A DNA stretch of 64,000 bases from Pyrenula massariospora (lineage: Eukaryota; Ascomycota; Eurotiomycetes; Pyrenulales; Pyrenulaceae): contig JAGFMI010000015.1 of NCBI GenBank assembly GCA_021030905.1, forward strand, positions 248,001 to 312,000, read 5' to 3'. The notes under the pieces are model-generated. The model did no database searches. It saw nothing but the letters and a program-made list of their open reading frames with translations, and was not told where the DNA came from. This document shows positions 23,432-44,727 of the stretch, one piece after another. Positions within the stretch are counted from its first letter, which is position 1. Each line of letters starts with the position of its first letter. A program made the position numbers and the translations under genes.

Positions 23432-23765
23432 TCTGATCTGGGGGTTTGAGCGCGTACGGTTGGTGGCTGTCAGAGGGCTAAGGGGAAGGACCCAGAATCG
23501 AAGATGGAGATCTAAAGCAAATAAACCGTTCTAGAGGTGAGAAATGCTGCGCCGATAATTCTAGCATCGTAGAGCCGTAGGTGAAATATATCTTCACGAC
23601 GATTGCGGCGACTTGAAATGACGACAGAATGCGGAGCCATTCCGATTGGTCGCCTTTTGATGCAGCCGGCTTCGTTGTTGGAAGACACGCTCATATTTGG
23701 CTCCTGTTGCTAAGCTAGAGAGCCAGACATCGCTCGTGCGCCATTGGACCGCAGTAGTGATTCCA
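23432..23765. other. Bidirectional promoter, RQC1 and PP2C
   Basis: 334 bases between two divergent start codons. The PP2C frame stays open upstream to about 23697 without an ATG, so that end is probably leader. I see no clear motif. Confidence 0.5.
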
Positions 23766-25758
23766 ATGCGTCGAGCTGTCGTCCAAGCCTTCCGTACAGT
23801 CCGAAAGTCCCATGTGCGGAAGCTTTGGGGCCATCAAAGTCCGTTGGCAGGCTTTCGCTATGGCCTCAACTCCCGGTCAAACGCCTCGAGTTTGAGGGAA
23901 TACAGCAACTCTTCTCAACATCTACAATCCTCCATGCAGATCAAGAATATCTCAGTTGCTGCTGTATCTGGTCTGATCGCTGGCGGAGCTTGGTATACAT
24001 ACAAGATTCAGCAGCACCGCTCACACGATCTCCAAAGCTCCTCTGTCAGCCATTCTTCGCCTCTCTCGTCAGATCATGCGTTTTCGAGTGTTAACTCCCC
24101 TATCGAATCGTCGGTCTCCTCTCCGCCGTCTCCTTCTTCACCCCGACGTGCGCTCTTAGTCGACAATGATCAGTTCTATACCAGCGAGATAGTCGGGGAC
24201 GGACCGCTCTCAAAAGACACGGATGATTATGGTCGGAAGGTACTGGAAATGATGACTCCCGAAGATGCCACATCTCGTCTGCGGAAAGCAGAGGCATCAT
24301 TCTTGGTCAATCGTGGCCGCGGCGTTGTTCGCTACGATACTGCCAATTTACCTAGCAATGACCCTATCGAAGACGATCATGCGGAAAAGATCATTGAAGT
24401 ACCCAATTTCCCTTCAGCTACTGATGGAGATACCATAAGCAGTGATTGGATGTTTTGGGGCGTTTTTGACGGTCACAGTGGCTGGACAACATCTGCAAAA
24501 CTCCGCCAGGTCCTAATCTCCTATGTTGCACGCGAGTTGAATACTACCTACAAAGCGGCTGTTTCTTCATCCACTGCCGGTGAAACATCTTTTCTCCCCA
24601 CTCCTTCCGCAATTGAAAATGCTATCAAATCCGGTTTTCTCAAACTTGACCACGAAATTTGCCATGGCCCCATCCCAACACTTTCTAAGGTCTCCAAAGC
24701 TGAAGCGGCTGCTGCCCTTTCTCCCGCTCTTGCCGGCTCCTGTGCCTTACTATCCTTTTACGACTCTCGATCTAAGATTTTCCGTACCGCCTGCACGGGT
24801 GACTCTCGTGGGGTCCTCGGCCGACGCAACCCACAGACTGGAAAATGGTTCGCAAAGCCGCTGTCAGAGGATCAGACCGGGAGTAATCCAACTGAGGAGG
24901 AGCGAATGCGTGGAGAACATCCAGGTGAACCATATGTGGTAAGAAACGGTCGTGTGCTTGGTCAGCTTGAGCCTACACGAGCCTTCGGCGACGCAGTCTA
25001 CAAATGGACACGAGACATTCAGGATCTGATCAAACGCCAATTCTTCGGCAAGACGCCGAGTCCACTGCTAAAGACACCCCCTTATGTTACGGCTGAGCCA
25101 GTTGTGACGAGTGCCGAGATTGAACCTACAAATGGGGACTTCGTGGTTCTGGCAACGGATGGCCTTTGGGAGATGCTTACGAATGAGGAGGTGGTCGGAC
25201 TGGTGGGCCAATGGATAGATGCACAGAACAAAAAAGGGAGCTCTGCCTCCAGCACTGGAGCATGGCTGAGTTCTTGGTTTAAACCTGGAGATTCCAAAGC
25301 CCAGCCACTGCCTGTAGAGAAAGGTGGAAACTCGGCGAAATCTGGCCTTGTCTCGCAAGACGACGAGAGTAAGTCTCATTGCCTACCTCTGCCTATGCTA
25401 AGATGTCCCCTCACTGACTCTGTCTGTAACCTTAGATGAACCCCCGATCCGCCAACAGCAATGGAACCTCGATCCCGCCGAATCCGCACAGAAGCGCTGG
25501 GTTGTTGAGGACAAGAATGCCGCTACACATTTGATCCGCAACGCCCTTGGTGGTCGAGAACGAGATATGGTTTGCGCGCTGCTCACCCTCCCGAGTCCGT
25601 ACTCACGCCGCTACCGAGATGATTTGACCGTAGAGGTAATATTCTTTGGAGAGGGCCCTAGCACGTCAGGGACCGTGGTTGTGAATGAGGAGGCCACAAA
25701 TCGGGGGAATGGTACTGGCACCGATGGTGGTGGGGGACCTATCAAGGCGAAGCTTTGA
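23766..25758 (+). CDS. PTC5: Mitochondrial PP2C phosphatase, PTC5 type
   Basis: Exons 23766-25368 and 25436-25758 give 641 residues. The start at 23766 begins MRRAVVQAFRTVRKSHVRKL, an Arg-rich, acid-free mitochondrial presequence, followed by a single hydrophobic segment (AAVSGLIAGGAWYTYKI). PP2C metal-binding motifs are present: FWGVFDGHSGW, TACTGDSRGVLG, EPTRAFGDAVYKW and VVLATDGLWEMLTNEEVV. Fungal proteins of this layout (yeast Ptc5, human PDP) dephosphorylate the pyruvate dehydrogenase E1-alpha subunit. The C-terminal exon carries the conserved NAATHLIRNALGGRERD and RRYRDDLTVEVIFF, confirming the splice DDE|NEPP. A low-complexity stretch after residue 95 links the membrane segment to the catalytic domain. 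PDH as the substrate is inferred from family resemblance. Confidence 0.9.
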
Positions 25759-31962: not shown

Positions 31963-34900
31963 ATGAGCTTCGGCTTCGGTATCAACGACTTCATTCAAGT
32001 TTCCCACCTTGCCTTCAAACTCTTTCGCAGATGCAGGGATAGCCCTAAGGACTTCGCAAACCTTTCCAGTGAAGGCAGGGGTCCATTCCAGCCCACAGCA
32101 TTAAAAAAGCTAACAAGAATTAGTCGCAAACTTGCAAGTTGTGGTTGACGACTGTAGGCTGACGATCCGAGAACAACAACTGGATGAAATCAAAACGGAA
32201 GAGCTTCTGCGTCTTGGACAAGGTTGCCTTGATTGCCTTCTAGAGCTTGAGGGTCTACTCCGCCGATATCATAGCCTAGGCACCAAATCGAAAAGGACCT
32301 TCGATCGCATAGGTTTTGAGAAGGAAAAAGTTAATGAGATCCGGCAGCGGGTTATATCGAACGCAGGCCTCCTAAATGCGTTTACGAACAGTCTCACTCG
32401 ATCCTCAGTGGCACGGCTCGAGGCTGCCTTGACACGCTTCATCGAAGAGTATCGACATGGCCAACATGAAGGCTCGGTGATATCCAAAGCTACTGTTGAA
32501 AGCGTGCAGAAGGAAGACGACGACGTTTGGCAAGAGATTGTCGAGGAACTGCAAGAGGAAGGGATCACACCTGAGCAAATTACAGAAAATAAACAGCTCA
32601 TCAAGGAGCGCATAGTAGCCGCTCTTTCTGGCAGTCTTGACAGAGCTTCGCTAGTATCAGGGTCTTATCGTACTGCGACCGAAGGCGGTAGCTCTCCCTT
32701 GACTGGATCCACCATTTTCGGTGAAAGCTTACCCCCAAGTCTTGACTGGCCTGGTCCTCTATTTCGATGGATGAAAGAGCTCGTTCAGGCTGTGATGGAT
32801 CTCTACCGGGGTGCCCCGGAGCAACTTTGTGAGGTGAAAAGTCGTGCTAGGTAAGCTACTTCCTCACGAAGGCTCCAAGTGCTTACATTTATTAGCGAAC
32901 TGTGGAACGCAATAGTAGACGTCAATTATGAGGTTTCTGATGCAAGTACACTAATGTATCATGAGAATCTGAGCCGCAAAAAGCGAATGGAACCAATCAT
33001 CAACGGGATAAATCAAACGCTCCGTCATCTTGCGCGCCTAGAAGGATCTTTCAAATCGGGATCATTAGATAGCGAACTCGGCCATGCATGGACCTGCAAC
33101 GAAGGAGACGTTCGAGAAGCATGCAGGCTAGCAGAGGAGCTTGGCAATGAGATTGATGCTCTCCAGGTTATATTCCGAGATTTTGGAACCATCGTCTTAT
33201 GCAACATTGAGGACCGAATCAAGCTAATTGTCGGAGAAATCAAAGCTAGAGAACGTTCAAAATCTGTCCTTTCATCTTGGGATGAAATGGAATCTTGTCT
33301 CGCGGACAATGTGGAAATCGCCGCTGAAGACGTAGCAAGACACCAGGAAGCTATTCAAAGCTTTTTGAGGACCCTCACCGATGATCCGGAGGTCAAAGAC
33401 ATCGAAGCGCAGGCCTTGCGGAATGACTCAAGCTCGATCGGGGAGTCATCACGCTCGAGGGTTGGATTCTCTTCTTTCAGTTCTCCACCTCCTATACCCG
33501 AATCTATGCAAAGTGGGCTTGATGTGGCGAAGAGCAAATCAAGTGTTTCGGGATCGGAGGCCTTGGAAATGAATAGCGCAGTCGAAGTTGCGAGGATGAA
33601 ACCTAAACGAACCTCTGTTCTGTTCATTGACCTAAACAACACCGGTGAGTTTCCCTAACGCCCCTTATGGCTAGAGCCATCGAACTTTTTTACATGCATA
33701 TGTCTAGAATCATGGTGTATATTATTGCTTTCAGATATTATGATAGAATTAAGTTTGACGAGATTTTATTTGTGTCTTTCTTGATTGTAAACGCATTTGG
33801 ACTAATACTGACACAATGTAGAGCGGGGTCCTATTGCGCAGGCGTATCTGGAATACCTCATGGCAGAACACCCGAATCTCGCGACGTGCTTTTCAAGAGT
33901 ACTCTCTGCAGGTCTCAGCGCAAGTAAACCAGGCGCTCCTCTTCCTCCTGGAGTCGAATTTCTCCTGAGAGATTATGGAATATGCGAAAATTTCCAGCAT
34001 GTATCTAGGAGACTGGAGCAGCGCGATGTCGAGCGATTTGAGTACATCCTTGCCATGAACCAAGCTCAGATTGACGAAGTTCTCGCAAGATATCCCACCG
34101 AAGTTCGAGGAAAAGTGGTACTTTTAGGAGGCTTCAACGGTCACGAAGGTCGCGAAGTTTCGCACCCGGAGAGTATCCAGGGATCGCGATTCTTCCACAT
34201 TGGAAGTAAACGTATATACCCAGGATATGACAAGTGTCTCCAAGAAATCAAGACCTACATTGCCGATTTTGTTTTTGAACTGACATCTTTCGATGTTCAC
34301 TCACCTACTCAAGGTGTTGAAGAACTTGATTCACGGGACACTTCACGGGAAATATCTGAAGACGAGGACTATTCAAGCGTTTTTCAAGGACAAGCACGAT
34401 GGCTGTTTGATGAAGATCGGCCAGGGTTTGACGAACTAAGCCGGGCCGTCATGCAATTTGAAGAAACCACTGAGTCTACATCTTCCAACAGCGGAAACGA
34501 TCAGTTTCCACCCACTGATTCGCCAATCTCGGTGCGGATAAAACCAGAACCAGAAGCCACTGAGTCGGACGAGCAGCTACTGCACAAACACCACGAACGC
34601 TTCGATAGGCTAGTCTCCTTGTTGTCGACTGATATAGGTGACTCGAGCGTCATGAGCCTCAGACAACATGTTCTTGGTTGGGAATCAGACAACACACGCA
34701 ACTTATTATCTGTAAGTACTGGCGGCGTGCAGTGGGCTCTAGAAAAGATCAGCTCGGAAGCCAATGATGCTTGTTCCCTGTGTCTTGCAACAGGCTCTCG
34801 ATGTGGATTCGTCCGTGACCGGGAGCTCAATTTCATCACCACCGAAGAAGCAGATTTGTTGGGTAAGTATTTGACAATTGCTATCCAGCAATATCGCCAT

Positions 34901-36072
34901 CAGAACTCGGCAACAGAAGATGAGTCGCGAACCTTGGAGCAAATCAGAGACAACCCGACTCCCGGTCCCAGAGCGCCTCCGTCAATCAGGGACGATGTGT
35001 CGGTTTCGGTACGTGCTGACAAACCAAATTTAACGCACGACGTTGCCATGATTCGGAAGTCGAACGCTCAGAATGGCCAACTACGCAAATCAAATACATT
35101 TATTATGCCGAAGAGCCCCCAAAATCGGCCGAAGACACTCGTCCGACGAGCCACCCAGGATAGCGACATCGCTGAATTGCCCGCATCATCAGGAAGTGGC
35201 CCAGCACACAAACACCGTGCCTCAAACGCTTCAGAGGCAACTGTGAAGCCAAGTGCAGTCACTAAGGGTGAAAGCAGGTCGATGATGAAAGAGTGGAGAT
35301 CTACCAAGCCTGCAGGATCTCCTGTTAAGGCAAAAGTACTGGCCGGTTCTATAGCACCGGTATCTATTCTCTTCCTGAGCACTGCTCATCTCCGTAAGTT
35401 TTGATGCGATCAATCTAAATCTAGGCTGACGCCAGCTATTCAGACGGAGCTATCATGGCTCAAGTATACCTCGAGTCACTCATCACGAAGTCTTTAGCTC
35501 TAGCCAACAAGGCGTGTGACAATGTTTCTGCCGGCGTTGCTCCTCTGACGCCTGCTGATAGATTAAACCCGAAGAAACTCGAGCGTCTATTCAAGAACCA
35601 CGACATACTAGCTTGCTGGCCACAAAAACCCGAGCGTGTACTTTTACCGGAGGATGTCATGGACTTCAACTACATCCTGCTCCTGAATGGAGCGACTGAA
35701 CAATGTCCCTTTGATAGCTGGATCGACGAAAACCCTGAGGAGGCAAGGGACATGCAAGAGAAGGCGCAGAAGGAGGGGAAAGAATGGAAAAACAATTTCA
35801 AGCCGAAGATAAGGGAGTTGAGCGCGTATCTTCAACCTATTGCTCCAAATCAGAGAAGCGCAGTTAAAGACGAGCAGAATGCGTCTCCACCACCTCTGAT
35901 GGATCCTGTTCAGCGAAGTGAGGAATCGACGTTTGGCGTGAGGCTGACTAGATTCGAGAAACACTTCCAGGACGTGAAACGGGCTGTAGATGGCTTTCTT
36001 CGGGCCGAACTGTCGTTTGACGTTGATACGATGGAATTCGTTAAGAAGGAGGGTGTGACTGCTGTTGGATGA
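31963..36072 (+). CDS. NLR-like N-terminal domain fused to two degenerate LMW-PTP domains
   Basis: Exons 31963-32074, 32124-32850, 32896-33644, 33822-35393 and 35444-36072 keep frame and give 1262 residues. The N-terminus (MSFGFGINDFIQVSHLAFKL, then SLGTKSKRTFDRIGF and HGQHEGSVISKATVESVQ) matches, by recall, the helical fungal domain found alone or at the head of STAND/NLR-type proteins. A second helical region covers about 280-420. An LMW-PTP fold starts at 519: SVLFIDLNNTERGPIAQAYL, VLSAGLS, RDVERFEYILAMNQAQIDEVL, KVVLLGGFN. The catalytic Cys is Asp525, Arg531 is kept, and the acid loop Asp is His (SHPES). A linker of about 350 residues leads to a second LMW-PTP fold at about 1044: SILFLSTAHLHGAIMAQVYL, DVMDFNYILLLNGATEQ, LMDPVQRSE, FEKHFQDVKRAVDGFL; Cys is Ser1049 and Arg is Gly1055. 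Both domains should lack phosphatase activity. The first intron uses a GC donor. Role as sensor, scaffold or immunity factor is inference. Confidence 0.8.
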
Positions 36073-39000: not shown

Positions 39001-40893
39001 AAACCATGCAAACCATCCACGGCCGTTTTTGCACCATGTACGAGGGGGGTCCGCATCCCAACTCGATGCGGGATGAACCCATTTGCTATCATTATCCTTC
39101 TCACTCTCAATTTCCCCGACGCTCTGCGGGACTGCATAGCGTTCATTTCGACGGCGGCTAGACTTGCATTTGAAATCTCCCGGCCATCACAAAGTGCCGC
39201 GACGAGGGCAAGACACCTTTTTGGGCCTCGTGCATACTTTGGGACTCCTGATCCGGGCTTGCGAGGCCCTACTACTGGCAGAGAGTAACCCGGGAGGTAC
39301 AGATTTCCCACAGCGGCGCCAAGAGCAAACAGCTGGCCCTACCCATAGAGAAGTGGCTGCAGCAGCGGGCAGTCCAAGTAAATTTTGGGGTACTCGTCGG
39401 AGAAGGCCTTTGTAGGTAGAGCTGTGGTGAGTGGAGGATCACTGATGAGACCGAACTTTGGCTACATTCCAGGTCGTACTTCATGGCAAAGTGCTCGAAG
39501 ATAGCCCGTGGCGTATTGCACTTTTCCAGGCAGCCGTAACGCCTGCGGTGCCACCAGACTCGTCCCTCTTGGTCTGCTGCTGGAGGGTGCAAAACGGTTG
39601 TGTGTGATGCTGGCGAATGGAGGATTCTGCTGGGGATGGGCGGCAGGGTCTACCGGTCTGGGTGTCGATCGCCGCTCTGGTGGACGGGCGCCGCGGTGCG
39701 TTCAAGGCATCGCGTCACCCTGATAACGAGCGCCGGCCGCGCTAGCCCAGGGTGCCAGGGCAGGCGGCCTCCACCAACAGCAGCGATGCTCGGCGGTCCT
39801 CTCCGTATCCCTCAACACCACCCGCCAGCCGAGTGAGAGAAACCGCAGCCGGCTTAGCCTGGTCGAAAAGTCTCATCGTGCGCCAGCAGTGGGGCGACCC
39901 CCTCCTCACCCCCGGACCACCTATCGTCCATACTATCCCACCCTCGCCCAAGCCTGCCCCAGCTCAGGCCGAAAACTCCCTAGGACGGCACCTAAATTTT
40001 GACCCTCGCGCCCACCAAATCCCAAAAGAGGCCAAGCCAGCACCTCCTCTCTGCCACTCCTCCCTCTTTCCCGCCCGTTCGAAAAAAACCTGGGGAAGAA
40101 AAGTCCCAATTCCTCGACCCTACGCTCATTCACTGCTTGATTCTCGACTCTCCTGCGTCTCCATCGACTTGGCCACCGCTCTAGATCCGCTCGTGCTGTT
40201 ATCTCGGCAAGAACTTGTCCCTGGTTGCGTGAAGCTCTGTTTGCCTACGCCATCCCACACCAATTCCCCAGTATCTGGTCCTATCCACCTTCCCCTTCTC
40301 GAGTCAGCTGCTCGTTCTGACCGTTCCTCGAGTAAGACACCTGCACACCCTTCCCTCATCAAGCTTCAAAGTCCCTGATATCAGTTGTTTGCCTCCAGTA
40401 TCACCAGGTCGAAACCTCAGTCCGACCTACCCCTCACCCTCCTCCGCATTATCAAACACTTTCACTTCCGGAAAGAGCACCAGCGAACTTGACGCCGCTC
40501 AAGGACTTTTGAATCGGACCGAGTCGCGCAGGTCTGTCCTGCACCTGGGGTTTAGCACGACTGCTGTATTGCTTCTTCACCTTCACCGCCTACTTCTCGC
40601 TTTCGCCGAAGACGGACACATCATACAACCTGAGCCGATCTCTCGTCTTTGAACCTATTTCTGGGATCGGTGGTCGCCTCGGCGCTTCGCGGCCGTTATA
40701 CAACCAGAGAAAGCTTCGAAAAGCTCAAGAGTGAAGCTACGACCTTTAGTGGGTCTTGCACCAGCTCGACCCCTCAAGATGCCAAGCTGCAATCCATTCT
40801 AAGGGTAGGTGTCTGGCGTTACGAGCGTCTGGACCTCGCTTGGTGTCTTTGGATTCGGTATAGAACATTTTGTCGAACAGCACTGTATGGCTC
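36073..40893. other. Gene-poor 4.8 kb, ending in the kinase leader
   Basis: No convincing gene. Frames up to about 208 codons occur on both strands (for example 36505-36804 +, 38946-39311 -, 39752-40378 +), but none starts, splices or reads like a known protein. The right part (about 39750-40890) is pyrimidine-rich and is probably the long leader of the kinase gene; a possible leader intron is 40332-40398 (GTAAGA to TCCAG). Two CACGTG sites near 37660-37695 are listed separately. I see no transposon ends, long repeats or RNA gene. Confidence 0.55.
37659..37695. promoter_or_regulatory. Pair of CACGTG E-boxes
   Basis: TCACGTG occurs at about 37658-37664 and again at 37689-37695, the two CACGTG cores 31 bases apart (about three helical turns) on the same face. 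CACGTG is bound by bHLH factors such as Cbf1-type proteins. No adjacent start codon explains them, so the role is uncertain. Confidence 0.3.
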
Positions 40894-43800
40894 ATGGCCA
40901 ACCAGCAGGAAGGGAAAACAGATGATGTTGTGGAGGCAGTCGACACAGCAGTGGAACAAAATGAGGACCCTATCAATGACAGAATTTCTCAAGAGCCGAC
41001 ACTCCGAAGCGATACGTCGTTCTCCAGACCACAATCAGCTGAGCAACAAGATCAGGAACCAACCGCGGATTCAAAAGCTCACGCACCAGGTCACTCTCTA
41101 TTAGGCACACCAGGCTCAGAGACTGGCGATGACCATCCTCCCATTCATTCCCGTCTACGGTTCATAGATCCGCAAATTCCACGCCAAGGGTCTCCAGCAT
41201 CCTCCACACAAACCTCGTCTAGCTCACTGTACAGGTTGAACGAGGATGTTCCAAACATCAACTTGGAGGAGCCGGGGATACTTCGCAATCTAGAGCGAAA
41301 ATTATCCAAGCGCAGTGGAAGAAGTTCAACCACTTCAAGGGCAAAAGCACAGGCCGACCTCAGTGCATCTCAATCCATCGACCGTCCTCATTTGGCTGTT
41401 GTCTCTAAATCTAGCAGCCATGACTATCCCGTCTATCCTGACCAGTCCTTTTCAGCACTTCATTCTCAGATTTACCCAACCCGGCCGGCGCCTCTGTTGA
41501 GGACCAGGAGTTCGCATCCATCACCTCATTCACTTTACACAGACCTATCCACTACCTCCAGACCAGGACGAGATCGAGAGCGAACCAGCCCTACGCTCGG
41601 GTCTAAGACAGCAGGAAACACGCCGACCTCGTCTCCAGGATTATTTTCACCCAGGGCATCCCGATCAACACCACCAGCGGGCGATTCAGTACAAGGCGGC
41701 AGCCCCCATCTACACCCCACTCAGTTTCACACGCCCAGAGAAACATTCACCGCCGAAGTCGAGTATGACCACATTACTGGTCGCAAGCACATTAACAATT
41801 ATGAAATTATTGGCGAGATTGGTCGAGGTGAACACGGTAAGGTCAAGAAAGGCCGGGATCTCACGAATGACATGTTTGTTGCTATCAAAATTGTGCCGCG
41901 AGTGTCCAACAAGAGACGCCTCGGTAAAATTGGTTCTCCAGAGGACAAGGTGAAGAAAGAGATCGCCATCCTCAAAAAGGCTCGGCATCCCAACGTCGTG
42001 AGTTTACTCGAGGTCATTGACGACCCAGCCAAGCATAAAGTCTACATCGTCCTTGAGTACGTAGAAAATGGAGAGATCAACTGGCGAACCAAGGGCTTGA
42101 AGGAAATCATCGCTGTCGACAAACGCAGACTTGAAAACGAATTACAAGGCAGGCCTGACGCCACATCGCTTGAACAAGACCAGCGATACATCAACCGTGT
42201 ACATGAGAAGCACCAGCGTCAAGAACGTGCGCGCCTACTTGGGTCTCGTCAAGTTCCAGGATGGAGTCTCGAGCACTCTCCGCTGGATGATGAGGGCCAC
42301 GGGCCAACTGGGATTGCCAAAAGTGCCTCAAATTCTACCATCGCTACGAATGACGACGTAGCTGAGGTGTTCAGTCCGGACAATGCTTTGGAGGGATCTA
42401 TGTACGGTGCATATGCAGCCGACTGGCATTCTCACCGTCCCCGAAATCTCAGTATAGCTACGAGTTTGTGGTCACACCAGTCGTCCGAGCTAGATTGGGA
42501 CTTTGAAGATAGCGAAGACTCATATGTTCCAACCCTTACCCTCACCGAGGCACGGTCGGCATTCACTGATACATTACTCGGTCTCGAGTTTTTACACTTT
42601 CAAGGCATCATCCACCGAGATATCAAGCCAGCGAATCTGCTTATCACAAAAGACCATCGTGTCAAAATCTCGGATTTTGGAGTATCTTATCTAGGAAAGC
42701 CTCTCGGGTTCGATGAAGACAACCCAGATGGCGAGGATGCAGATGCGACGGCACTTGATGACCCCCGGGAGTTGTCGAAGACAGTTGGGACGCCCGCCTT
42801 CTTTGCGCCAGAGCTTTGCTACACTGATCCAACTCAATTCGAAGGAAGCGAAGATGGAACCGGTCCGACAATTACTGGTGCACTTGACCTTTGGAGTCTC
42901 GGCGTAACGCTGTACAGCATGATATACGGCCGCCTACCGTTCGTTGGTGATGGAGAGATGGGCATGTTTGTTCAAATCGCTGAAGGTGAAGTCTTTCTTC
43001 CCAAGAGGAGGTTAAAGCCCGTGGAGACCGAGTGGCAAAGAGAAGGCTCCCAGGCTCGCTTCCCACCGCCCATCAACAGTAACAAGCGGTTACCCCATGA
43101 GCTAGTCTATGAAGATGTGCCCGAAACTGTTCGTGACTTGCTCCAGCAGTTACTCATCAAGGACCCAGCAAGGCGGATATCCATCGAAAATGCCAAGATT
43201 CATCCTTGGGTTCTTGAAGGGATCGAGAACCCTGACCGCTGGGTGGGTGATACCGATCCTAAACGATATGGCGAGAAAAAGATTGAAATCGATGAGACGG
43301 AAATGTCTCGTGCCGTTACGAAAGTCGGCATTGGTGCTGCCCTAAAGCTTGTTGGTGATCACGTTACCAAGGGGTTAACCTCGATACTGGGTCGTGCACG
43401 TGAGAGCCGCCGCCGCGCACCAAGTGCAACAAATTCCGCCACTCCCTCTGTCGCAAGCGTTGCTTCCTCAACCAGTGTCGGCACCGTCAGCCGGGATATG
43501 GCCGAGAAGGAGGCGAGACGGATGAGTCTACGCGGAGATGAAGCTATCGCATCAGCGCTCAAGGCTTCACGGGAAAATAACGAGCATCCTTTATCTCAAA
43601 GCGTAACAGTTAGCCCAGAACACCGAGATACTTCTGGTTATTTCAGCAGCATGAATAATCCTAAATCCTTTTCCGCCGACTCAACACCCTTCCAAGATGA
43701 TCTTGGCCATCGACGGCCCTCTGGACCTGATCGTGGGCTCTCCAATATTTCAGTTGCCGACTCCCAACGAACGCTTCGACCGGGAGACGCACATGGCCTG

Positions 43801-44727
43801 ACTGCAAACTGGCACAGCTTACATACTCCTACCTCCGAAGCCACTGTCTCCAGTCCATTTGACATCACGGCGTTTGGCAATATGTTCTCAGGCATTGGTC
43901 GACATATCACGGCGTCTCGCAGCCGGGAGCGTGCCAATGTCTCTGAGAAACCAAGCAGCAGTCGCGAGTCCTCGGCTGAACGCAGTGAGCACAGTAGCTA
44001 CGCTGGACCAAGCATAGCCGTAAGCACGGCTTACGCAGCAGGAGAAGTCGAGCAGCCCGATATCTTAAGAGACGGTCAAGACCCGATCGAACGACGCCCA
44101 TCTCACTCTGCTCCACCACTCATTGAGGGGCATGCCAGGAATTTGTACCATCAACCCCAAGGTTCCACCCCAGAAGCATTTGAGCACGCTCAGGAGATCA
44201 ACTTCCGCCGACAAAGACTCGAGGTCGAAGCCGCGGCTGAGAAAGCATCATCACGTCCTTCAAGCCAAATGGCAAACGTTGATTGTCCGCCTTCGCCAGA
44301 TGACGAGACACAGTTCCAGAAATTTCACGGATCTGCTCCTTCGGCAGCACTAATTTCTGCGCAGCCCTCTACGAGCACCATTGCTACTAACTCGGGTGAC
44401 GAGCTCACCAGCGATGTTTCACAAACCATGTCGAATCCTAGTATCCCTTCTATCGTTTCAGGCGCGTCTTCTGTTTCCGACCACGGCCTCTACTTCCCTC
44501 CACATACCAGCCAAACTCATGGCGATGACGCCGATTCGATCAAGTCTTATATGAAGACCGGTGAGACCATAACTCCACATACTAAACACCATATTGCCCT
44601 GGGACGGGCCCTGGAAGCTCAGCAAACCGCGGACAATGATGGTGACGACGAGGGTGACTCAGAAGACGAAGGTTTGACATTTGGTAATCCAAGGAGCAAG
44701 AAGAGCACGATCGCGGACAATACGTGA
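40894..44727 (+). CDS. CaMKK/Snf1-activating-kinase type Ser/Thr kinase
   Basis: A single long exon of 1277 residues. The kinase domain starts near residue 303: NYEIIGEIGRGEHGKVKKG with the Gly loop, VAIKIV with Lys332, GIIHRDIKPANLL with Asp576, ISDFGVSYL with Asp594, TVGTPAFFAPEL and DLWSLGVTLYSMIYGRLPF. The order and the FFAPEL and DPARRISIENAKIHPWV elements match the Elm1/Sak1/Tos3 (S. pombe Ssp1, animal CaMKK) group, upstream activators of Snf1/AMPK. An insert of about 140 residues separates the hinge (VLEYVENGEINW) from the catalytic loop. Disordered Ser/Pro-rich regions flank the domain (1-300 and 810-1277), and the acidic end reads DDEGDSEDEGLTF. The start at 40894 (MANQQEGK) is the first ATG of the frame; upstream coding exons cannot be excluded. 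The exact paralogue is not certain. Confidence 0.9.
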   Translation: MANQQEGKTDDVVEAVDTAVEQNEDPINDRISQEPTLRSDTSFSRPQSAEQQDQEPTADSKAHAPGHSLLGTPGSETGDDHPPIHSRLRFIDPQIPRQGSPASSTQTSSSSLYRLNEDVPNINLEEPGILRNLERKLSKRSGRSSTTSRAKAQADLSASQSIDRPHLAVVSKSSSHDYPVYPDQSFSALHSQIYPTRPAPLLRTRSSHPSPHSLYTDLSTTSRPGRDRERTSPTLGSKTAGNTPTSSPGLFSPRASRSTPPAGDSVQGGSPHLHPTQFHTPRETFTAEVEYDHITGRKHINNYEIIGEIGRGEHGKVKKGRDLTNDMFVAIKIVPRVSNKRRLGKIGSPEDKVKKEIAILKKARHPNVVSLLEVIDDPAKHKVYIVLEYVENGEINWRTKGLKEIIAVDKRRLENELQGRPDATSLEQDQRYINRVHEKHQRQERARLLGSRQVPGWSLEHSPLDDEGHGPTGIAKSASNSTIATNDDVAEVFSPDNALEGSMYGAYAADWHSHRPRNLSIATSLWSHQSSELDWDFEDSEDSYVPTLTLTEARSAFTDTLLGLEFLHFQGIIHRDIKPANLLITKDHRVKISDFGVSYLGKPLGFDEDNPDGEDADATALDDPRELSKTVGTPAFFAPELCYTDPTQFEGSEDGTGPTITGALDLWSLGVTLYSMIYGRLPFVGDGEMGMFVQIAEGEVFLPKRRLKPVETEWQREGSQARFPPPINSNKRLPHELVYEDVPETVRDLLQQLLIKDPARRISIENAKIHPWVLEGIENPDRWVGDTDPKRYGEKKIEIDETEMSRAVTKVGIGAALKLVGDHVTKGLTSILGRARESRRRAPSATNSATPSVASVASSTSVGTVSRDMAEKEARRMSLRGDEAIASALKASRENNEHPLSQSVTVSPEHRDTSGYFSSMNNPKSFSADSTPFQDDLGHRRPSGPDRGLSNISVADSQRTLRPGDAHGLTANWHSLHTPTSEATVSSPFDITAFGNMFSGIGRHITASRSRERANVSEKPSSSRESSAERSEHSSYAGPSIAVSTAYAAGEVEQPDILRDGQDPIERRPSHSAPPLIEGHARNLYHQPQGSTPEAFEHAQEINFRRQRLEVEAAAEKASSRPSSQMANVDCPPSPDDETQFQKFHGSAPSAALISAQPSTSTIATNSGDELTSDVSQTMSNPSIPSIVSGASSVSDHGLYFPPHTSQTHGDDADSIKSYMKTGETITPHTKHHIALGRALEAQQTADNDGDDEGDSEDEGLTFGNPRSKKSTIADNT

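Follow-up and report, generated by a model that had tools for sequence, protein, structure and literature searches.

The window analysed here, a stretch of 64,000 nucleotides from the lichen-type fungus Pyrenula massariospora (assembly GCA_021030905.1, contig JAGFMI010000015.1, positions 248,001 to 312,000 of the forward strand), contains a five-exon gene at 31963..36072. It encodes a protein of 1262 residues in which an N-terminal segment, predicted to form a four-helix bundle, is followed by two domains derived from low-molecular-weight protein tyrosine phosphatase (LMW-PTP). All coordinates of this gene and its parts refer to the plus strand. The exons (31963-32074, 32124-32850, 32896-33644, 33822-35393 and 35444-36072) form a spliced open frame with which two relatives from metagenome-assembled genomes (MAGs), P0001 and P0002, are colinear over the full length, and the gene starts and stops exactly where the initial annotation had placed it. 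Intron 1 (32075..32123, 49 nt) is of the GC-AG type and restores the motif SSEVANLQ present in P0001 and P0002. A GT-AG placing of this intron, which gives a product of 1260 residues, was dropped because the motif requires the GC-AG sites; the Pfam scan of the protein was run on this 1260-residue model. Intron 2 (32851..32895) is 45 nt long, and introns 3 (33645..33821) and 4 (35394..35443) are both in phase 1 and split the codons of Glu530 and His1054, respectively.

In the gene model, exon 3 encodes the middle segment of the protein and, without a break, the opening strand of domain 1. Exon 4 continues from the remainder of domain 1 through the linker to the opening strand of domain 2. Because these exons bridge the domain boundaries, neither phosphatase domain is separable as a gene of its own, and splitting the locus into separate genes would leave each of them without its P-loop strand. 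P0001 (1271 residues) and P0002 (1246 residues) have the same domain order from end to end, with P0002 lacking the equivalent of residues 202-256. At the level of the gene model, the N-terminal bundle and the two LMW-PTP-derived domains are fused in a single gene.

Protein searches define a family that consists, besides the window protein, of P0001, P0002 and three partial proteins (P0003, P0004 and P0005), which cover domain 1 and not domain 2. P0001 is a MAG protein of Pyrenula ochraceoflavens with 83% identity over the domain-1 region, and P0002 is a MAG protein of Pyrenula sp. with 70% identity over 88% of that region; Pyrenula is placed in Eurotiomycetes, Pyrenulales. Wider searches for relatives of the fusion, in which the 8000 candidates sharing most words were scored, returned the same five proteins only; beyond these candidates, distant relatives may exist in other fungi. 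The fusion is conserved and, as far as these searches reach, lineage-restricted.

The three-way identity of the window protein, P0001 and P0002 is 56% overall, with values of 77% for residues 1-130, 78% for domain 1, and 60% and 40% for the core and the tail of domain 2. The 25-residue segments with at least 92% identity (n = 39) are clustered in domain 1 (33, within residues 552-679) and in the bundle (6, within residues 74-103). Identity is 56% over residues 263-470 and 30% over the weakly conserved linker 470-515, with which the conserved middle segment (residues 280-515, 32896..33601) reaches domain 1. The two phosphatase domains are connected by a linker and a conserved segment (residues 693-1036, 34310..35341), and residues 926-1040 show 30% identity. 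Residues 780-925 (34571-35008) are 61% identical in the three proteins, have no Pfam match and contain a conserved C-x-L-C starting at residue 847.

Two LMW-PTP-derived domains with altered active sites

Domain 1 (residues 520-690, 33614..34303, containing intron 3) matches Pfam family PF01451 with 53.6 bits (E 3.6e-14), which passes the cut-off of 23.2, and scores 50 bits in a six-frame genome search with the same family. A search of PDB sequences returns 40 distinct matches at E<=0.1, led by 2cwd (6.2e-13), and the majority carry the name of an LMW-PTP or a tyrosine phosphatase; the domain-1 family profile retrieves 33 PDB sequences at E<=0.001, and the comparison with the canonical LMW-PTP profile gives E 4e-16. 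On these sequence grounds, domain 1 is certainly a homologue of LMW-PTP.

Residues were counted in an alignment of the family rows (six for domain 1 and three for domain 2, including the window protein itself) with the canonical LMW-PTP of the genome and 16 bacterial LMW-PTPs (17 canonical rows in all). Positions are named by bovine/human LMW-PTP numbering, and the aligned positions are assigned what we take to be their catalytic roles, namely nucleophile Cys, P-loop Arg and acid-loop Asp. The nucleophile position of domain 1 is occupied by Asp (Asp525, 33629..33631) in 6/6 family rows and by Cys in 17/17 canonical rows, the acid-loop Asp position by His in 6/6 (His644, 34163..34165), and the Cys17 position by Glu in 6/6 (Glu530). 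The P-loop Arg (Arg531, 33824..33826, the Arg18 position) is retained in all six rows, as are the phosphate-cradle positions Asn15, Pro, Ser43 and His72; the Ser19 position is Ser in four rows and Gly in two. Judged by these residues, domain 1 is not an active LMW-PTP.

Domain 2 (residues 1042-1262, 35357..36069, containing intron 4) is more divergent: no Pfam family, PF01451 included, is listed for it, and a PDB sequence search with its profile gives chance-level matches only, with no LMW-PTP at E<=10. A comparison of domain 2 with the domain-1 profile in hhalign yields a probability of 96.5 and an E-value of 8.4e-10 over 184 columns. In a rerun, the score is 64.6, whereas the domain-1 profile reaches 19.3 at most when its columns are shuffled (60 controls) and 12.5 when it is reversed. 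Against the canonical LMW-PTP profile, domain 2 scores 30.2 (probability 30.7, E 5e-4), and with columns trimmed it scores 28.9, against a maximum of 19.9 among 200 shuffles and 13.6 for the reversed profile. The LMW-PTP homology of domain 2 rests on these profile comparisons, on the shuffle controls and on the shared intron described below. The nucleophile position is Ser in all three rows that cover the domain (Ser1049, 35378..35380), the P-loop Arg position is Gly in 3/3 (Gly1055), and the acid-loop Asp-Pro is retained in 3/3 (Asp1207, 35902..35904). An AlphaFold2 model of the P0001 domain 2, built from three rows, has a mean pLDDT (predicted local distance difference test) of 39.0 and is too poor for a judgement of the fold.

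The initial annotation had described two LMW-PTP domains in tandem within a single gene, both dead, with Asp525, Arg531, Ser1049 and Gly1055 at the alignment places given above and the acid-loop Asp lost in the first domain only. The Pfam and profile matches, the shuffles and the residue counts bear out this description, and both the Asp and the Ser are conserved among the relatives. LMW-PTP-class pseudophosphatases seem hardly described, and none was found in the openly licensed PMC literature besides the kinetoplastid ArsC-type proteins, in which Cys is replaced by Gly according to the available text of PMC2175518. The latter are a published instance of a dead protein within the LMW-PTP/ArsC fold group, but they belong to the ArsC branch rather than to LMW-PTP, and the available text describes no helical-bundle fusion. 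PDB chain 7btg, a Drosophila LMW-PTP-like protein, carries in place of the nucleophile a Ser that may be natural or engineered.

A shared P-loop intron

The PF01451 search of the genome (37.8 Mb, 33 contigs) reveals one other gene besides that at 31963-36072, a canonical LMW-PTP on the minus strand of contig C2. Its P-loop reads VCLGNIC-RSP, and the codon of the second Cys is split behind its first base by an intron. Introns 3 and 4 cut the codon of the corresponding Cys17 position in domains 1 and 2 after the same base. Additionally, P0003, P0004 and P0005 depart from the family sequence at the P-loop intron site of domain 2, as if reading into the intron. Had the two introns been inserted independently, their arrival at one and the same base would be a striking coincidence, and both domains therefore most likely descend from an intron-bearing LMW-PTP gene.

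The pair shares with canonical LMW-PTPs the sequence family (domain 1), this conserved P-loop intron, the SAG motif and the F-x-YI strand motif. It differs in the replacement of the nucleophile Cys by Asp or Ser, in the loss of the acid Asp from domain 1 and of the Arg from domain 2, in its tandem and fused arrangement, and at position 92, which is Asn in 9/9 family domain rows and Asp in 17/17 canonical rows. In the tree, domains 1 and 2 group against the 17 canonical rows with a support of 95/96, on long branches; 17 bacterial loci had been gathered, and L048 (100 aa, broken frame) was left out before the profile and the tree were made. The shared Asn and this grouping fit a tandem duplication that followed the first residue losses, an order of events that we infer. 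Besides the long branches, a caveat is that the one alternative tree tested, which joins domain 1 with the canonical gene of the genome, is not firmly rejected (approximately unbiased test, p-AU 0.0535).

The predicted N-terminal bundle and its relatives in the genome

The N-terminal segment (residues 1-130, 31963..32401, containing intron 1) was assessed through an AlphaFold2 model of the P0002 N-terminus, which is colinear with and 80% identical to that of the window protein, and through relatives in the same genome. The model (mean pLDDT 70.5, lowest at 131-180) contains helices at residues 9-25, 29-54, 59-87 and 104-150 and a short helix at 91-100. According to the available text of PMC9815663, in which PF17111 is HeLo-like, MLKL and the HeLo-like domains likewise have a short helix that separates helices three and four. 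The N-terminus is thus predicted to be a four-helix bundle, a fold class suggested by a model of moderate quality. A PDB sequence search with the N-terminal profile gives chance-level matches only.

At E<=1, a genome search with P0002 residues 1-155 gives 15 rows, including two for the gene itself, and six loci were inspected. The strongest relatives lie on contigs C29 (E 5e-20), C2 (6e-16) and C5 (1e-15), followed by weaker places. On C2, the module continues in one open frame into Hsp70 (45.7 bits, cut-off 20.6), and on C5 an ankyrin-repeat frame is next on the same strand (locus pair L006/L007 for the C2 and C5 relatives). Downstream of the C29 relative, the same strand carries G-alpha frames, which score 83.8 and 55.7 bits (cut-off 48.8). 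The G-alpha and ankyrin joins are putative, being suggested by neighbouring frames on the same strand. The first 212 residues of the frame of a relative on C14, the part scanned, show no known domain. The C29 locus (L032, C29:1695200-1698600, minus strand) may represent a further receptor-like combination of the N-terminal module with G-alpha.

The N-terminus of the C29 protein, the closest relative within the genome, scores below the cut-offs for SesA (PF17107, 24.1 bits, cut-off 26.3), for PF17111 (22.8 bits, cut-off 27.2) and for Rx_N (16.4 bits, cut-off 27.7); the PF17111 scores of the same-genome relatives are 20.0 and 22.8 bits, both under 27.2. Across the genome, PF17111 gives 43 rows (E<=0.01) and NACHT gives 65 (E<=0.001). 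A NACHT lies on the same strand at most 2.5 kb downstream of three of the PF17111 rows and of one weak row of the N-terminus (E 0.055), in the latter case at a distance of 607 bases. When residues 1-420 of P0002 were searched against proteins (8000 candidates scored), four proteins outside the fusion family emerged that are related over roughly half of the query; two come from Zymoseptoria, and one of these is named Fungal N-terminal domain-containing. The N-terminus is related to the Hsp70-, G-alpha- and ankyrin-associated module of the genome and may, more weakly, be related to SesA, HeLo-like, MLKL and plant coiled-coil (CC) domains. The likeness to the HeLo-like and SesA domains of fungal NOD-like receptors (NLRs) and effectors lies in the scores of the C29 relative and in a similar predicted helix order, whereas those scores are under both cut-offs and the protein has no NACHT match.

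Possible mode of action and alternatives

The anatomy of the protein is well supported; its mechanism, ligand binding and signalling included, is what we infer throughout. In MLKL, a pseudokinase restrains a four-helix bundle, which is freed by a phosphorylation event (available text of PMC10211241 and PMC12881547). The window protein has the same order, a predicted four-helix bundle and then a pseudoenzyme, but carries pseudophosphatases instead of a pseudokinase; no sequence relation to MLKL is shown, and the fold match is not unique. By analogy, the protein most likely works like MLKL, and an MLKL-like switch, in which a death- or membrane-signalling bundle is held by a pseudophosphatase sensor, is put forward tentatively, as a reading that falls short of probable. 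The bundle would be the death- or membrane-signalling part, and the C-terminal pseudoenzyme, a pair arisen by tandem duplication of one LMW-PTP gene, would act as the sensor or latch, with two pseudophosphatases where MLKL has its pseudokinase. Domain 1, which retains the phosphate cradle without the chemistry, may bind a phosphorylated partner without turnover, as STYX binds ERK2 (PMC10211241, available text); its ligand may alternatively be a protein that partners or attacks the LMW-PTP of the cell. Domain 2, having lost the Arg of the cradle, may serve as a structural partner.

Several observations weigh against this proposal. The P-loop segment of domain 1 (residues 523-536) has a three-way identity of 71%, under the 78% of the domain, which indicates that the former active site is not its most constrained part. 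The Asp525 carboxylate sits where the phosphate would and could hinder its binding. An Asp substituted for the Cys thiolate preserves the negative charge, which may weaken phosphate binding, and the ligand might then be a protein surface instead. In Foldseek, none of the 403 matches of the N-terminal model reaches E<=0.001, and the first ones are chlamydial IncA; in VIA-align (13/50 rows named), the rows of MLKL and CC-NLRs score no better than Cbl, IncA and designed bundles, with which they are tied. The N-terminus of the window protein itself passes no Pfam cut-off, with PF17111 and SesA not listed, and neither NACHT nor NB-ARC is listed at E<=10 in the Pfam scan of the protein. Additionally, seven neighbouring frames that were scanned, out of the 26 frames of at least 200 aa listed (the gene at 31963-36072 among them), are ordinary metabolic and signalling genes.

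The initial annotation had called the N-terminus NLR-like. This holds only loosely, in that a relative has sub-cut-off SesA and PF17111 scores and that MLKL and plant NLR CC domains are among the better fold matches, tied with unrelated bundles; the segment itself reaches no Pfam cut-off. An NLR in the strict sense was rejected because NACHT and NB-ARC were not found in the protein by Pfam.

Among the alternatives, an ordinary scaffold or allosteric regulator with no role in immunity or death is possible, though rather unlikely: domain 1 would hold a phosphoprotein as STYX does, and the N-terminus would be an oligomerisation piece. The nonspecific fold match of the bundle favors this explanation, as does the STYX-like loss of the nucleophile with retention of the Arg in domain 1. 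STYX retains its P-loop Arg. It has lost its nucleophile Cys (PMC10211241, available text), and the likeness of domain 1 to the STYX/CC1 pseudophosphatases lies in these two features; the difference is that the present domains belong to the LMW-PTP fold class and not to CC1, are in tandem and are joined to a helical bundle. The weak SesA and PF17111 scores of the N-terminal relatives, and the one weak relative 607 bases upstream of a same-strand NACHT, argue against a mere scaffold. An integrated decoy or guard, in which the pseudophosphatases mimic the cell's LMW-PTP and a mycovirus, bacterial or other attacker protein binds them and triggers the bundle, appears unlikely. It draws on the presence of one canonical LMW-PTP as the only other PF01451 gene in the genome, on the relatives of the N-terminus that are fused to Hsp70 or precede G-alpha frames, and on the proposal that fungal NLR decoys were copied from a cellular signalling enzyme, as for CHK-2 kinase domains (PMC12258605, available text). 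However, domain 1 evolves slowly (78% three-way), where an attacked decoy might be expected to change fast; at 28% identity to the canonical enzyme over 104 residues it is a poor copy, and Pfam finds no nucleotide-binding domain in the protein.

Catalysis by domain 1 with Asp525 as the nucleophile, through an acyl-phosphate mechanism on the LMW-PTP fold, is highly improbable: the Asp is invariant in the six rows and the P-loop Arg and Asn are retained, but every row has His at the acid-loop Asp position and Glu at the Cys17 position. A gene-prediction artefact that merges neighbours, or a decaying pseudogene, is scarcely credible. The same architecture and open frames are found in two MAG proteins of other species, an exon spans each domain boundary, and conservation is strong in the domains and weak in the linkers; separate genes and a pseudogene were rejected on the recurrence of the fusion and the bridging exons. 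Returning to the MLKL-like switch, a broader form of it is doubtful, namely that fungi evolved a phosphatase-based counterpart of MLKL as one of a set of NACHT-free bundle receptors in this genome (with G-alpha, Hsp70, ankyrin or LMW-PTP), in which the pseudo-LMW-PTP pair would gate a membrane-acting bundle and read tyrosine phosphorylation or the state of LMW-PTP.

The openly licensed PMC literature, outside which most subscription journals lie, yielded no earlier description of this domain combination, with an LMW-PTP joined to an N-terminus of this kind. In the main texts, the word "phosphatase" occurs 0 times in the survey of fungal NLR effector domains (PMC9815663) and in PMC12881547, and once in PMC12258605, for an excluded phosphatase D group; in the available text of a paper on Aspergillus (PMC5307856), LMWPc appears solely as the name of a class of phosphatases. 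The fusion provides a testable case of one principle, by which a dead signalling enzyme would control a helical bundle of the death type, here realised with a phosphatase, and suggests that fungal genomes may hold receptor-like proteins missed by NACHT-based NLR surveys.

Among the seven neighbouring frames scanned, those at 40864-44724 and 23661-25436 encode a protein kinase and a PP2C phosphatase, and the other five encode a multicopper oxidase, a cation ATPase, a methionine synthase, an FMN dehydrogenase and a cupin.

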